A DNA stretch of 20,093 bases from the IMG/VR virus record IMGVR_UViG_3300042878_000758, positions 1 to 20,093 of that record. The stretch is one strand, 5' to 3'. The notes under the pieces were generated by a model. That model was not told where the DNA came from, did not search any database, and was given only the letters and a program-made list of their open reading frames with translations. The DNA comes from a virus. Position numbers and translations under genes: made by a program. This document shows positions 4,466 to 14,350 of the stretch, in pieces. Position 1 is the first letter of the stretch. Each line of letters starts with the position of its first letter.

Positions 4466-5544
4466 TGAACACACTCGAACTCAAGAACTGCGACGCTCTG
4501 GAGCTGCTCGCAGACATCGAGGACGACACCGTCCAGCTCGTCGCAGTAGACCCACCGTACTTCCGATTCTTGAACGAGCCGTGGGACCGCCAGTGGGATG
4601 ACCGCTCGAAGTTTCTGCAGTGGATCGGGCAACTCGCCAGAGAGTGGCAGAGGGTCCTAGCGCCGAACGGGTCGCTCTACTGCTTCGCCTCGCCGCAGAT
4701 GGCCGCATCGGTCCAGATGGTCCTAGCGGAGTCGTTCGAGATCCTGAACGAGATCGTCTGGGTTAAGGACGGCGGCTGGCATAACAAGGCCGGCAAGGAG
4801 TCGCTCCGGTCGTTCTTCCCGCAGACTGAGCGGCTCATCTTCGCTGAGCAGTTCGGAGCAGATGGTTCAGCCCTCGCCGGTTCAGGATATGCGGCAGAGT
4901 GCGCAGAGCTACGAGCTGGAGTGTTCGAGCCGCTGCGGCAGTACCTAGAGAGTGAACGCCTCCGAGCTGGGATCTCGAACCGCCAAGTCGACCAGGCTCT
5001 TGGGACTAACGGCATGGCCGGACATTACTTCGGAGCGTCGCAGTGGTCTCTACCAACAGAGAGCGCCTACCTCATCATGCAGGAACTGTTTAACGCTAAC
5101 GGCGGCGAATACCTCCGGCGGGACTACGAAGAGCTCCGGCGGGACTACGAAGAGCTCCGGCGGGACTACGAAGAGCTCCGGCGACCATTCACAGTGAGCG
5201 CTGAAGTTCCATTCACTGACGTCTGGACCTATCCAACGGAGGCACAAGGAGCTGGGAGTGTCCGTCATCCTTGCGAGAAGCCGGCCGAGATGATGCGACA
5301 TATCGTCAGCAGCTCGACCCGAGAGGGCGACCTCGTCCTCGACTGCTTCGCAGGATCAGGCACGACCGCCATCGCTGCGCTCTCAACTGGCCGGCAGTTC
5401 ATCGGCTGCGATGCCTCGCCGAAGTGGGCCGAGTACGCAAACAACAGGATCAGGACATGGGAACCAGGGCGAGATGTCTACCGGCCGCAGATCCGCAACG
5501 ACGCTCAGCTCGAAATGTTCTCGATGTATATGGAGGACGAATGA
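4462..5544 (+). CDS. DNA methyltransferase, beta-class N6-adenine/N4-cytosine type
   Basis: 360 aa. ATGATG at 4462-4467 overlaps the upstream stop; either Met could start it. Motif IV, VDPPYFRF, is near residue 30 and precedes motif I, DCFAGSGTT, near residue 294, the order of beta-class amino methyltransferases. HPCEKPAEMMRHIV just before motif I is the conserved segment leading to the SAM site. Between the two lies an insert of about 130 residues with an HTH-like part (SERLRAGISNRQVDQALGTN) and a tandem heptad (DYEELRR, three copies, about residues 218-241), probably target recognition plus a coiled-coil spacer. No restriction endonuclease is adjacent, so it is probably an orphan enzyme protecting phage DNA or marking it for regulation. 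The target base and site cannot be read from sequence. Confidence 0.9.
   Translation: MMNTLELKNCDALELLADIEDDTVQLVAVDPPYFRFLNEPWDRQWDDRSKFLQWIGQLAREWQRVLAPNGSLYCFASPQMAASVQMVLAESFEILNEIVWVKDGGWHNKAGKESLRSFFPQTERLIFAEQFGADGSALAGSGYAAECAELRAGVFEPLRQYLESERLRAGISNRQVDQALGTNGMAGHYFGASQWSLPTESAYLIMQELFNANGGEYLRRDYEELRRDYEELRRDYEELRRPFTVSAEVPFTDVWTYPTEAQGAGSVRHPCEKPAEMMRHIVSSSTREGDLVLDCFAGSGTTAIAALSTGRQFIGCDASPKWAEYANNRIRTWEPGRDVYRPQIRNDAQLEMFSMYMEDE
5113..5183 (+). repeat. 21-bp in-frame tandem repeat in the methyltransferase gene
   Basis: Three perfect copies of a 21-bp unit (5113-5133, 5134-5154, 5155-5175) plus 8 further bases encode a repeated heptad, LRRDYEE. The copies are identical at the DNA level, so they are young or kept identical by slippage. 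Confidence 0.95.
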
Positions 5545-8078
5545 ACACGCTCGAAGCGGCGCTGAAGTATGCGCTCAGAGGTTGGCGGGTCGTGCCGATC
5601 ATGCCAGGAGACAAGCGGCCAGCGCTCAACGCTTGGCAAGACCTCGCCACGACCAACGCCGAGACGATCACTCAGTGGTTCTCTCAGCAGTACGCCGGGC
5701 ACGGAGTCGGCATCGCTACCGGCGAGAGCTCTGGGATCTGGGTCCTTGACGTCGATGACCGAGACAGCCTTCACGATCTCGAAGCTACTCACGGCAAACT
5801 CCCGCAGACGCTGACCTCGATCACTGGCTCAGGTGGCGAGCATCAGGTCTATCGCTGGCCGGCGGATGGACGGACGATCCGCAACTCTGCGAGCGGCATC
5901 CTTCCCGGCTTAGATGTCAGAGGCGAGGGCGGCCAGATCGTCGCTCCGCCGACGGTACATCCGAACGGGCGACCCTACGAGTGGGAGTTCGAGGAGGTCC
6001 TCGCCTATGCGCCCGAGTGGCTGCTTGACCTTGTCTGTGAGTCTGACGAGCCGCCTCGGTCGAAGCTGCGGACCGTCTCGGCCTCTGATCGGCCGGGCGA
6101 TCTCTGGGCCGCTGCGACTGATTGGGCCGAGATCCTCGGGGCGAGAGGCTGGCAGCTTCACCATGTTGACCGACAAGGCGAGCGGCACTGGACTCGACCA
6201 GGCAAGGAGCTGAGAGACGGAACCAGTGCGACGACTGGCTACACGCCGGCGGACACGATGAAGGTGTTCACGTCCTCGGTCCCACAACTGCGGACAGAGG
6301 AGGTCTACTCGAAGCTGGGCTTCTTGGCTGCGATGGATCACGGCGGAGACTTCTCCGCAGCAGCTCAAGCGCTGGCCGATCAGGGCTGGAGTCGCCCGCC
6401 CGAGCGTCAGCCAGAGGTCGAGCGTCAGGCGCTGTCAGATGCTCAGCCGCTGCCAGTGTGGCCAGTCGATGCGCTGCCAGCTTGGATGAGAGATCAGGTC
6501 GACGCTGCAGCGGATCGACTGCAGGTCCCGGTCGATCTCCTCGCCCAGCTCGGGATCGGGGCCCTCGCCTCTGTCTGTATGGGACATGCGACCGTCGAGT
6601 TCGCCACCTGGTCAGAGAACCTGAACCTCTATCTGTACTGCTCGATGCACTCAGGCGCTGGCAAGTCTCCCGCTGAGAAGGCGATGGTCTCGCCGCTGAG
6701 AAAGTGGGAGCAGGGCCGTCGACAGGATCGAGCCGAGGATCATGCGATGGAGTGCGCCATCTGGAAGACAACTCAGGCGAAGAAGAAGAAGTGGGACGAG
6801 TCGGTCGCTATGGGATCGAAGCAACAAGATGACCCTGAGTGGCGTGAGCTTGTCCTCAAGGCTGCTGAGCCGAGGCCGATGCCGTTCCGCCTAACTGTTG
6901 ACGATGCAACGCCCGAGCGTCTGGTTCAGCTTCTCGGGATGCACAAGAACCTCGCCATGATCTCAACCGAGGCCGGGCTTCTCGATATGGTCGGCGGTCA
7001 AGGCCGATCAGGTAGCTCAGTAAACATTGACGTCTACTTGAAGGCGTGGTCGGGCGAGACGATCCAGCGAGACCGCAAGGGCGGAGATGATGGTCCCGAG
7101 TCGACCATCGTCGAGAACGCACTGCTCTCGGTGGTGCTGACCGTGCAGCCCTCGGTGATTGCCAAGTATCAGACATCTAACGTCGAGCTATCGGGTCGAG
7201 GGTTCTTCGCTCGGTTCATGCCGTCGGTCCCAGCGTCGCTCGTGGGGACTCGGACCTTCGGCTCTGCTGCAGTGCCAGGAGCCGAGGCTGAGACGTACTC
7301 GGAGCGGCTGACTGCTCTAGCTGACACGCTCGCCAGTGCAACAGGTCTAGTACTGCGGCCAGATCCTGAAGCGGCTCAGATGTTCTACAGATGGTGCGAG
7401 GAGATGGAGGTCGAGCTCAAGGTCGGGCGACGCCTCGCCACACTTCATGACGCCTCCTCGAAGATCAGGAGCTGCACGATGAGAGTGGCAGCGCTGCTCT
7501 CGCTGGCCGACTCAGAGTGGAAGACCATCTCGGCCGAGGTCATGGGTCGAGCGCTTCGGATCGGTGACTACTGGACCGAGCACGCTGTGAGTGTGGCCGG
7601 CGGGAGCGAGGACGTCGACAGTCGTCACGCCGAGGAGATGGCCCGAGTCATTATCGAGTTCGCTCGCAAGCATGGGACCCTCGATCTGACTCCTCGGGAG
7701 GTCTATCTGAGCCGCCGACGAGGTCTCGGGCTGCGCTCAGTCGAGGAGCTCGTCCCTGGCTTCGAGCGTCTCGCAGCGCGTGGTTGGCTCACATTTACCG
7801 AGGGAAGCCTCGAAGAGATCGGAATCAACCGCGCGCGGGTGCGCGCGCGTTTAGATCCGTTAACGCTCGACTCTCTCACTGAGAGTGACGAGCCGACCAC
7901 AGCGAGCGTCTTAACGCGCGCAAAAATCCGTTATCCTAAAGAGCGAATTTCTTCTTCTTCTTCTTCTTTAGGCGTAGATGCACCCTCTGAGCCCATTAAC
8001 GGATTTTTGCGCGCGTTAACCGAAACCGAGCCCGAGGACTCAGACGGCGAAACTTTCGCCGCTGAGCTCGGATTCTGA
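5541..8078 (+). CDS. Primase-polymerase (Prim-Pol) with DUF3987 helicase-like domain, phage replication protein
   Basis: 845 aa, ATG overlapping the methyltransferase stop (ATGA). Residues 1-160 form a bifunctional primase/polymerase domain: RGWRVVPIMPGDKRP, the metal-binding VLDVDD (about D70 and D72), the SITGSGGEHQVYRW strand with H101, and LDVRGEGGQIVAPPTVHPNG. From about residue 300 the DUF3987 region follows, with a P-loop-like SGAGKSPAE near 373 and STEAGLL...GQGRSG around 475-490, as in phage replication proteins of this architecture. It would prime and unwind the phage genome. The final 60 residues (polar, with a run of six Ser) look disordered. There the codons switch to TTA, AAA, ATT and GTA over a set of inverted repeats, suggesting the DNA rather than the protein is under selection. 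This is the largest early gene and the main sign of autonomous replication. Confidence 0.92.
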   Translation: MNTLEAALKYALRGWRVVPIMPGDKRPALNAWQDLATTNAETITQWFSQQYAGHGVGIATGESSGIWVLDVDDRDSLHDLEATHGKLPQTLTSITGSGGEHQVYRWPADGRTIRNSASGILPGLDVRGEGGQIVAPPTVHPNGRPYEWEFEEVLAYAPEWLLDLVCESDEPPRSKLRTVSASDRPGDLWAAATDWAEILGARGWQLHHVDRQGERHWTRPGKELRDGTSATTGYTPADTMKVFTSSVPQLRTEEVYSKLGFLAAMDHGGDFSAAAQALADQGWSRPPERQPEVERQALSDAQPLPVWPVDALPAWMRDQVDAAADRLQVPVDLLAQLGIGALASVCMGHATVEFATWSENLNLYLYCSMHSGAGKSPAEKAMVSPLRKWEQGRRQDRAEDHAMECAIWKTTQAKKKKWDESVAMGSKQQDDPEWRELVLKAAEPRPMPFRLTVDDATPERLVQLLGMHKNLAMISTEAGLLDMVGGQGRSGSSVNIDVYLKAWSGETIQRDRKGGDDGPESTIVENALLSVVLTVQPSVIAKYQTSNVELSGRGFFARFMPSVPASLVGTRTFGSAAVPGAEAETYSERLTALADTLASATGLVLRPDPEAAQMFYRWCEEMEVELKVGRRLATLHDASSKIRSCTMRVAALLSLADSEWKTISAEVMGRALRIGDYWTEHAVSVAGGSEDVDSRHAEEMARVIIEFARKHGTLDLTPREVYLSRRRGLGLRSVEELVPGFERLAARGWLTFTEGSLEEIGINRARVRARLDPLTLDSLTESDEPTTASVLTRAKIRYPKERISSSSSSLGVDAPSEPINGFLRALTETEPEDSDGETFAAELGF
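7830..7847. repeat. Alternating CG hairpin in the 3' part of the primase gene
   Basis: Seven-base arms of alternating C and G (7830-7836 and 7841-7847) flank a GGGT loop. The alternating CG run could also adopt Z-DNA. It begins the structured tract that continues to 8019. Confidence 0.8.
7911..8019. repeat. Perfect 23-bp inverted repeat with nested 8-bp inverted repeat
   Basis: Arms 7911-7933 and 7997-8019 are exact reverse complements over 23 bp; the left arm starts TTAACGCGCGCAAAAATCCG. Inside, CCTAAAGA (7935-7942) and TCTTTAGG (7965-7972) form a second inverted pair around a (TCT)n tract. The core ATCCGTTA also occurs at 7855-7862, so three copies (7855, 7926, and inverted at 7997) are spaced 71 bp apart. 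The tract lies in codons 791-827 of the primase gene. Candidate roles are a replication origin inside the replication gene, as lambda ori lies inside O, a protein-binding operator, or an RNA structure. Confidence 0.85.
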
Positions 8079-8088
8079 GGAGAGCATC

Positions 8089-8328
8089 ATGTCCTTGTGT
8101 CATTGCCAGTTCGTCGGAGAGCTCAGCACTCCCGAGCATCGGGCTCATCATCGAAGCTGGGAGGAGCGACAGTTGACGCCGCCGGTCTCGGCCGTGACGA
8201 CCGTCATCGAGGTGACCGACATCTATCGAACGCTCGACGAGATCATCGCCGCTCTTCACGGCGGACCTCTGCCGAGGTTGACCGCCGGCGCTCAAGCCAT
8301 CATCGCGAAGACCAGGAGAGCAACATGA
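8089..8328 (+). CDS. Small hypothetical protein with Cys/His-rich N-terminus
   Basis: 79 aa. ATG at 8089 follows GAGGAG at 8078-8083, overlapping the end of the primase gene, with normal spacing. The N-terminus MSLCHCQFVGELSTPEHRAHH contains two Cys and several His that could bind a metal. The C-terminal part (IYRTLDEIIAALHGGPLPRLTAGAQAIIAKTR) is helical. I do not recognise the family. It ends in an ATGA overlap with the next gene, with AGGAG at 8313-8317 inside its last codons serving that gene. Confidence 0.7.
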   Translation: MSLCHCQFVGELSTPEHRAHHRSWEERQLTPPVSAVTTVIEVTDIYRTLDEIIAALHGGPLPRLTAGAQAIIAKTRRAT

Positions 8329-8991: not shown

Positions 8992-9267
8992 ATGGCGAGC
9001 AAGGGCCGCAGCACTCGGGCATGGAAGAAGATCACGCTCGTCGTCTATGCCGAGGAGACGAACTGCTGGCTATGCGGTCGAGTCGTTGACCATGACGTCC
9101 CGCCTCGTACTCGATGGGGACACTCAGTCGACCACGTCATCCCGATTAGCCAGGGCGGCGCTCCCTACGATCGGGCGAACTTAAGACTCGCTCATCATGG
9201 GTGCAACAGCCGCCGCAAAGACAACGTGGCGACGAGATCAACGCCCGGAGCGACTCGGCACTGGTAG
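8992..9267 (+). CDS. HNH endonuclease
   Basis: 91 aa. ATG at 8992 has GGAGG at 8980-8984; a longer version from GTG 8875 is possible but lacks such a site. The HNH fold is shown by the zinc pair CWLCG (C25, C28), SVDHVIPISQGG with the general base at about H48, N63 in RANLRLAHHGCN with the following His, and C71 as a further zinc ligand. Small HNH proteins directly before the terminase genes are common in HK97-like phages and are needed, with the large terminase, for specific DNA cutting in several of them. That role fits its place here, the last gene before the boundary at 9268. A free-standing homing-type nuclease is the alternative. Confidence 0.92.
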   Translation: MASKGRSTRAWKKITLVVYAEETNCWLCGRVVDHDVPPRTRWGHSVDHVIPISQGGAPYDRANLRLAHHGCNSRRKDNVATRSTPGATRHW

Positions 9268-9336
9268 AAAATTTAAAAAATAAATTCAAAAAGATTTCTG
9301 AAAATTTCAAAAAGATTTTGAATTTTTTTAAATTTT
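9268..9336. repeat. AT-rich imperfect palindrome after the HNH gene
   Basis: Starting directly after the stop codon, 13-bp arms AAAATTTAAAAAA (9268-9280) and TTTTTTAAATTTT (9324-9336) are exact reverse complements. A further pair, AAATTCAAAA (9282-9291) and TTTTGAATTT (9316-9325), lies inside with a small offset. Only 8 of the 73 bases at 9268-9340 are G or C. Two copies of TCAAAAAGATTT (9286-9297, 9307-9318) stand 21 bp apart. It may be a terminator ending early transcription or an easily melted origin element. Confidence 0.85.
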
Positions 9337-9373
9337 GAAATTCGCGTGATCCTGCCCCTTATCGTCCGTTTTC

Positions 9374-9390
9374 CCTCTCTGAGGTTTTTT
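9374..9390 (+). terminator. Weak intrinsic-terminator-like element
   Basis: CCTC (9374-9377) and GAGG (9381-9384) flank a TCT loop and are followed by six T. A stem of four pairs is short, so this is only a candidate. With the long AT hairpin upstream, it is in the right place to end early-region transcription. Confidence 0.25.
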
Positions 9391-9396
9391 CAAGAG

Positions 9397-9420
9397 TTGT
9401 CCACAGGGAAAAGTGGATAA
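9397..9420. other. Two opposed DnaA-box-like sites
   Basis: TTGTCCACA (9397-9405) on the + strand matches the DnaA box form used in high-G+C Actinobacteria. AGTGGATAA (9412-9420) is the complement of TTATCCACT, one base from the general consensus TTATNCACA. They are inverted, six bases apart, and lie about 60 bp after the AT-rich palindrome. The pair also reads as a 9-bp inverted repeat with one mismatch and could instead be an operator before the terminase genes. Confidence 0.5.
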
Positions 9421-13117: not shown

Positions 13118-14350
13118 ATGAATCCAGAAATTAAGCGCCTCGTAGAGGCACGAAACAAAGCATGGGCCGAGATGCGCGCCCTTTCCGATCACGTCGCAGC
13201 CGAAGGCCGTGAGTTTTCAGGTGAAGAGGAGATCCAGTGGGCAAAGGGTAACGCCGACCTTGACGCACTCGACGCCCGCCTGAACTCGATCATCGAGCTT
13301 GAGCAGCGCAACGCTGACATCGAAGCAACCCTCGGACGCTTCGCACCATCGGAAGCTCCAGCGGAAGTCAAGGTCTCCGACTCTGACATGCTGCGCTCCC
13401 TCGCAAGTGGCGAGCGTCGCTTCGCTGAGTTCGGCCCAGAGGCCGCTGAGAAGCGGACCCTCTCGAAGCTGTCCGCAGGCGCTGGAGCGAACACCGTCCC
13501 AACGTCCTTCTACGACCAGCTCATCGTCGCCCTCAAGGAAAACTCGACGGTCATGGCTGCGAACGCCATGCTCATCGAGACCGCCGGCGGCGAAGGCCTC
13601 CAGGTACCGACCGCAGCTTCTGGCTCCTTCCCTACAGCGGCCCTCGTCGCAGAGGCTGGCACCATCGGAGCATCGGACCCGGCCTTCGGTCAGGTCACCC
13701 TCGGGGCGTACAAGTACGCATTCCTCACACAGGTCAGCTCTGAGCTGCTCTCCGACGCTGCAGTCAACATCGAGGCCTTCTTGGCTCAGGTTGGCGGACA
13801 GGCTCTCGGGAACGGCTTCGGCGCTGCGACCATTACCGGCACCGGCTCATCCCAGCCAGTCGGCATCGCTGGCTCTGCAGGCTTCGCCACCGTCGCCTCG
13901 GCTTCTGGTTCAGCCGCTGCGGGCTTCTTGCTCAATGACGTGCTGACCCTGATGCACTCCATTACTCGGCCTTACCGTGAGAACGCCAGCTTCATCTGCA
14001 ACGACTCCGTCATGCTGACGCTGCGCAAGTTGCGCGATCTGTCCGGCGGCGCTGGCACTGGTCAGTACCTCTGGCAGCCATCGAACCAAGCAGGCACGCC
14101 TGACTTGCTTCTCGGCAAGCCGATCTACACCGACCCGAACATGCCAACCGTGACAACCACGGCCGGCAAGGGTCTCGCATTCGGTGACTGGGGACGTGGA
14201 GTTATGGTCCGCATCGCCGGCGGCGTTCGCGTTGAGTCCAGCCAGGACTACGCATTCAACACCGACCTGAACACCTTCCGCTTCATCATGCGCGGAGATT
14301 CTCAGATCATCGACGCGGCAGCAGCTCGGGTGCTCACCTATCTGACCTAA
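13118..14350 (+). CDS. Major capsid protein, HK97 fold
   Basis: 410 aa. ATG at 13118 has a strong site GGAGG at 13106-13110. The first 90 or so residues are charged and helical with coiled-coil character (EIKRLVEARNKAWAEMRALSDH), the delta or scaffold domain, ending before SGERRFAEF. The remainder is the HK97 shell domain: VPTSFYDQLIVAL (N-arm and start of core), then FGQVTLGAYKYAFLTQVSSELL, NGFGAATITGTGSSQPVG and SFICNDSVMLTLRKLRD. The segment GKPIYTDPNMP and a C-terminus with FAFGDWGRG-like and FRFIMRGD-like parts complete it. It assembles into the prohead and is cleaved by the upstream protease. The 91-bp leader between the two genes may hold a separate promoter or processing site, but I see no clear one. 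Confidence 0.95.
   Translation: MNPEIKRLVEARNKAWAEMRALSDHVAAEGREFSGEEEIQWAKGNADLDALDARLNSIIELEQRNADIEATLGRFAPSEAPAEVKVSDSDMLRSLASGERRFAEFGPEAAEKRTLSKLSAGAGANTVPTSFYDQLIVALKENSTVMAANAMLIETAGGEGLQVPTAASGSFPTAALVAEAGTIGASDPAFGQVTLGAYKYAFLTQVSSELLSDAAVNIEAFLAQVGGQALGNGFGAATITGTGSSQPVGIAGSAGFATVASASGSAAAGFLLNDVLTLMHSITRPYRENASFICNDSVMLTLRKLRDLSGGAGTGQYLWQPSNQAGTPDLLLGKPIYTDPNMPTVTTTAGKGLAFGDWGRGVMVRIAGGVRVESSQDYAFNTDLNTFRFIMRGDSQIIDAAAARVLTYLT

Follow-up and report, generated by a model that had tools for sequence, protein, structure and literature searches.

The window analysed here, a 20,093-bp viral record (IMG/VR IMGVR_UViG_3300042878_000758), carries a perfect 23-bp inverted repeat inside the 3′ end of a primase-helicase gene, which raises the question of what such a structure does within coding sequence. 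A first-pass annotation had described this repeat together with an inner 8-bp pair, a CG hairpin and three ATCCGTTA cores at 71-bp intervals, and had proposed an origin of replication inside the gene. We found every one of these elements, and list them here with the parts of the gene that they overlap:

5541-8078, plus strand: primase-helicase gene (845 aa; Prim-Pol at residues 7-160, DUF3987 AAA+ helicase at residues 328-686)
7674-7853, plus strand: predicted C-terminal winged-helix domain (residues about 712-771, AlphaFold2 model)
7820-7859, no strand: CG-rich hairpin, arms 78% complementary and 4 nt apart, overlapping box 1
7845-7862, plus strand: box 1, a partial arm copy in direct orientation, the best upstream match to box 2 (16/23)
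7860-8075, plus strand: gene tail past the conserved protein, 72 codons, predicted to be disordered
7911-7933, plus strand: box 2, left arm of the perfect 23-bp inverted repeat
7934-7996, no strand: spacer of 63 nt (GC 0.44 vs. 0.61 for the window), with a pyrimidine run at 7948-7969
7935-7942 and 7965-7972: inner 8-bp pair in the spacer (CCTAAAGA and TCTTTAGG)
7997-8019, minus strand: box 3, right arm of the perfect 23-bp inverted repeat

The array, which sits inside the 3′ end of the gene from 168 to 60 nt ahead of the gene end, contains the window's only perfect inverted repeat of at least 16 bp. Base composition predicts about 4e-8 such repeats per 20 kb (spacers up to 130 nt), and 30 dinucleotide shuffles of the 500-bp region reached a top arm score of 11 vs. 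the 23 observed. The match between box 1 and box 2, which lie 71 apart start to start, was equalled in 0/300 shuffles, and the inner pair was equalled or exceeded in 1.5% of shuffled spacers. The ATCCGTTA cores, at 7855 and 7926 on the plus strand and 7997 on the minus strand, follow one another in steps of exactly 71 bp, with an isolated fourth copy at 14350; because this 8-mer, allowing one mismatch, is not enriched across the window (6 observed vs. 5.6 expected), only its clustering is unusual. Collectively, these findings exclude a chance origin of the array.

The abrupt shift toward AT-rich codons described in the first-pass annotation is likewise present, with GC3 falling to 0.30 at 7911-8000 vs. 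about 0.6-0.8 in most of the gene; a (TTC)n run at 7949-7968 accounts for part of this drop, and a second dip (0.47) occurs at 7311-7400. Low GC3 across the array would also fit a MITE-like mobile palindromic element inserted in frame, as would perfect terminal repeats that end in TTAA and a length of 109 bp that, minus one TTAA, gives 105 bp, which is divisible by three. Such an insertion is nevertheless highly improbable: the window record holds no second copy, other lineages show the same layout with unrelated sequence, and the 24 other viral stretches that match the core pattern have no extended arms and are apparently chance matches.

A closely related contig, IMG/VR 3300010885_017843, is 95% identical to the window over the primase region. 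It is 30,011 bp long with a 15-bp terminal overlap, appears circularly complete, and codes for a tyrosine integrase, an exonuclease, a RusA-like protein and a repressor-like HTH protein; WhiB-type proteins point to an actinobacterial host. Between this 30-kb relative and the window we counted 0 substitutions over 64 box bases (P = 0.045), which is only suggestive of box conservation. An exact-motif scan of viral contigs with a 17-bp core returned the near relative and two unrelated contigs, and the core pattern with a 50-80 gap returned 25 viral stretches, with arms running well past the pattern in the near relative only.

Given the integrase, and given that inverted repeats can support inversion, the array might be read as a site-specific recombination site (att or inversion), but the integrase gene lies about 9 kb from the array in the 30-kb relative, inversion would create a stop in the primase tail (window read by eye), and the inverted form is not seen in the near relative, leaving this reading extremely unlikely.

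Repeats of other kinds were also observed elsewhere in the window: an imperfect, GC-rich tandem repeat of GGCAN-type units at 1537-1935, open on both strands and of skewed composition; an almost perfect 21-bp repeat at 5106-5183 within a DNA methylase gene, encoding a repeated LRRDYEE peptide; and an (ACA)9 microsatellite at 436-462 close to an ORF start, with the alignment to the near relative breaking at 436. A viral contig unrelated to the window (L006, 5700-6200) carries dense noncoding TAACAGATTTTT-like repeats of iteron-like look.

The protein encoded across the array matched both Pfam models above cut-off (PF09250, Prim-Pol, E = 4.5e-43; PF13148, DUF3987, E = 1.1e-69), and earlier work (PMC5862659) predicts DUF3987 to be a helicase. 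In the AlphaFold2 model (mean pLDDT 86) the helicase is followed by a winged helix. The modelled helicase resembles MCM: MCM proteins give the best alignments (with VIA-align, Z 18.7 over 270 residues at rmsd 3.4 for 6mii_B), and Foldseek agrees on this likeness, with low TM-scores. The winged helix occupies segment residues 412-471 as helix-helix-strand-strand, with a block mean pLDDT of 88-96 up to residue 470. This predicted C-terminal domain is likely the origin-binding part, a likelier candidate than the primase N-terminus, for which DNA-binding tests had first been suggested. No second helicase or initiator was found among the proteins scanned, a subset of the ORFs of the window and the 30-kb relative (G001).

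In 64 aligned homologs the conserved protein ends near residue 773, with P773 almost invariant and the distant homologs L036 and L037 terminating near it. The tail that follows wholly contains box 2, box 3 and the spacer, and of box 1 only the end; pLDDT is below 50 at segment residues 482-516, 529-537 and 540-545, which make up most of the array-coded tail.

With close contigs grouped, the helicase is shared by 11 actinophage-type lineages, and in 9 of these the DUF3987 gene has, at its 3′ end, inverted arms 17-31 bp long; the arms differ in sequence and lie inside the gene in 7 lineages and at or after the stop in 2. For instance, in L046 and L047 (53-54% identity) this position is taken by 27-bp arms that differ in sequence from those of the window and are separated by 68 nt, and arms also lie inside the gene in L198, L200/L239, L201 and L202-204. 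The array follows the stop in L184 and in L197, where one control window of the same locus outscores it. The inverted-arm search at the gene end found no array in L205 and a marginal one in L206.

We also observed the three-box order of the window (two direct, one inverted) in L182/L183 (37%) and L184 (34%), here built of 9-bp iterons, with a start-to-start distance from box 1 to box 2 of 63 in both L182 and L184 (each equalled in 0/300 shuffles); L046 and L047 have no clear box 1. Spacers between box 2 and box 3 measure 63 nt in the window, 68 in L046/L047, 62 in L182 and 68 in L184, are AT-richer than their own locus in all four of these lineages (by 0.08 to 0.19), and start with a similar CCTARAG-like word, a post hoc observation. 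A 9-mer iteron test gave nothing for the window, L046 and L047 and clear 9-bp iterons in L182, L184 and others; each window arm is a single 23-bp site in which tandem 9-bp iterons are not evident. L182 has just two DnaA boxes in its 13-kb locus (7323 and 7572), one on either side of the array; the other lineages lack them.

The proposal of an origin inside a replication gene draws support from this layout, which sequence comparison finds at the same spot in relatives. The accompanying suggestion that nucleotide sequence is selected over protein is likewise supported. The first-pass annotation had named relatives with a conserved peptide but no repeat as grounds for rejection, and the comparison gave the opposite result: an inverted repeat persists at this spot in relatives, with a different repeat sequence and a largely different peptide. 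The peptide LxRxLTE near the right arm is common to the window and one other lineage, so the tail protein is not wholly free of constraint.

Between L046 and L047 one arm position is altered on both sides, a coordinated change of the arms that favours the origin reading. A compensated change of this type, together with the RNA fold of 7820-8090 (z = -6.3), would also suit an mRNA hairpin terminating, processing or coupling downstream gene expression. We consider this second reading very unlikely, as a hairpin would leave unexplained both the third, direct box and the iteron change in all boxes; additionally, a search of Rfam gave no hit at E up to 1, promoter-like sites are absent, and the sole terminator-like site is on the minus strand. 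Folded as single-stranded DNA, 7820-8030 gives z = -8.5.

L202, L203 and L204 provide a natural experiment on initiator target change. Between L202 and L203/L204 the boxes show the same iteron change, a second coordinated change of the arms, while the spacer is almost unchanged, and the L202 and L203 proteins, whose iterons differ the same way in the boxes, are 92% identical; a single-residue gap and a few residue differences separate the L202-type from the L203-type winged helix. The helicase core of L203 is L202-like (149 vs. 30 informative sites, alignment columns 0-1200), the winged-helix region and the beginning of the array are L204-like (44 vs. 5 sites, columns 1200-1500), and columns 1500-1650 are mixed (11 to 11). 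Judged by these sites, L203 is a recombinant in which the winged helix arrived along with the beginning of the array. Across 12 sequences (66 pairs), box similarity tracks winged-helix identity beyond core identity, a modest effect (partial r 0.35, permutation p 0.046), and the co-inheritance of winged helix and array may, at least in part, reflect mere adjacency.

Several known origins lie at or in initiator genes, and we compared the array with them. The iteron sets of PICI/SaPI origins are oppositely oriented. PICI origins directly follow the 3′ end of the initiator gene and consist of two iteron sets with an AT-rich region between them (PMC6092414), and SaPI Rep and SCCmec Cch2 bind there via their C-terminal domains (PMC7581432). 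In the window, too, an AT-richer stretch lies between inverted boxes, although these show no significant 9-bp iterons, and the whole is found near the 3′ end of a putative initiator helicase gene. It differs in its helicase (DUF3987 vs. DUF927 or D5) and in its sites, which are 23-bp arms inside coding sequence rather than immediately 3′ of the gene, and we therefore do not assign it to the PICI type. In SCCmec, at a putative origin, the Cch2 C-terminal domain similarly recognizes a site lying directly downstream of the gene that encodes it, but, unlike in the window array, short direct repeats are needed (PMC7581432), and by analogy this need would count against reading inverted arms as an origin.

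These origins beside PICI/SaPI initiator helicases and Cch2 are closer precedents than lambda O, which had been cited as a precedent. Lambda ori consists of direct iterons bound by the initiator N-terminus, unlike the two inverted arms and one direct partial copy of the window, and for the proteins scanned no O-type match is listed in Pfam or PHROGs. The pMEA300 origin has been claimed to lie in repAM, which we do not use as evidence. Lambda ori in gene O (PMC6022878) and phage P1 oriL in repL, where synonymous changes in the AT-rich part weakened oriL activity (PMC9948254), resemble the array in being within the initiator gene, with different initiator families. In IncU plasmid RA3, mapping placed oriV at the 3′ end of repB, the initiator gene, and in the AT-rich DNA next to it; unlike the window array, this origin has direct repeats, is transcription-activated, and is served by RepB, a different plasmid initiator (PMC9455977).

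Because its position and geometry match those of PICI/SaPI origins and a C-terminal winged helix adjoins it, we take the array to be probably the origin (ori) from which a temperate actinophage with a genome of about 30 kb replicates, or at the least the portion of that origin to which the initiator binds. The PrimPol-DUF3987 protein would be the initiator, with its C-terminal winged helix attaching to the boxes in their opposite orientations; a pair of MCM-like helicase rings would then form face to face across the AT-richer spacer and open it, and priming would fall to the PrimPol domain. In this reading the origin is written into the 3′ end of the gene, with the reading frame continuing through it as a disordered tail. 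Binding, melting, priming and origin activity at the array are all steps that we infer.

The chief rival site is a candidate cos/pac site or second origin at 9246-9420, 1.3 kb further on between the HNH and terminase genes; should the origin lie there, the array would be a copy-number or regulatory site. This stretch holds the window's only AT-rich 80-bp tract (AT 0.72 at 9246) and a DnaA-box-like pair (TTGTCCACA at 9397, inverted TTATCCACT at 9412) that recurs in near relatives, with a similar pair between HNH and TerL in L181. The AT-rich tract is absent from the other lineages examined, however, and a spot next to the terminase fits a cos or pac site equally, with several relatives' contigs beginning or ending near 9340, such that we consider an origin at this site unlikely. 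Cumulative GC skew, proposed earlier as a check on the origin, lends no support: the skew does flip sign close to the array, but the flip runs contrary to that of a usual origin, and the skew tracks the primase gene. As it is positive only over this gene in the 30-kb relative, we excluded it from the evidence.

Returning to the array as the probable origin, we also analyzed gene ends across the wider DUF3987 family, for which 134 loci were gathered (4 without a usable gene end; 129 in the motif counts). At least 3 GACARAA sites occur near the gene end in 63/129 loci vs. 10/2136 control windows of the same loci, a motif chosen from these same loci, and the other 66 lack 3 sites. After merging close relatives, at least 3 GACAAAA sites were found in 14/67 clusters vs. 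5/1496 windows. Among 11 loci from named records (including plasmid L185), 4 had at least 3 GACARAA sites, as did 7 of the later 27 loci (45 minus 18 on contigs already covered). The inverted-repeat score topped every control window in 15 of these 27 (1.3 expected), or in 8/18 clusters when deduplicated (0.85 expected), and a general iteron score over the family showed no enrichment (6/130 loci vs. 4.4 expected).

Pairs of sites recur in many Streptomyces loci, at positions of about +17/+26 and +82/+103 relative to the stop, with an inverted pair at about +168/+189. A Streptomyces plasmid, NZ_CP107792 (circular, 18 kb), encodes Prim-Pol and a DUF3987 (YfjI) protein and carries 9 GACARAA sites at the gene end, and its listed annotation contains no further replication gene. 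Mirrored GACARAA/TTYTGTC pairs were also observed directly after DUF3987 genes in Firmicutes and Streptomyces elements such as L062, L073, L148, L151 and L185. No array was found at the DUF3987 helicase genes of T1-like phages (L192, L193), phage GMA2 (L191) or plasmids L187 and L189; L190, whose gene end was missing, was left out.

Taken jointly, these patterns incline us, with some reserve, to a common origin design in those phages, prophages and integrative elements of Actinobacteria and Firmicutes that have DUF3987 (MCM-like) initiators: mirrored sites of 9-bp type, often GACARAA, at the end of the helicase gene, with winged helix and sites changing as a cassette. In some actinophages the reading frame would have been extended through the origin, its disordered tail being a passenger of DNA function.

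A search of a literature collection in which 10 papers use the word DUF3987 returned no description of an origin at DUF3987 genes. Our analysis predicts where a large set of uncultured phages and related replicons would begin replication, and with which initiator; for DUF3987, until now labelled a protein of unknown function, it proposes a role as an origin-binding helicase. If this is true, the like layout beside an unrelated helicase family would mean either convergence or a wider spread of this arrangement.
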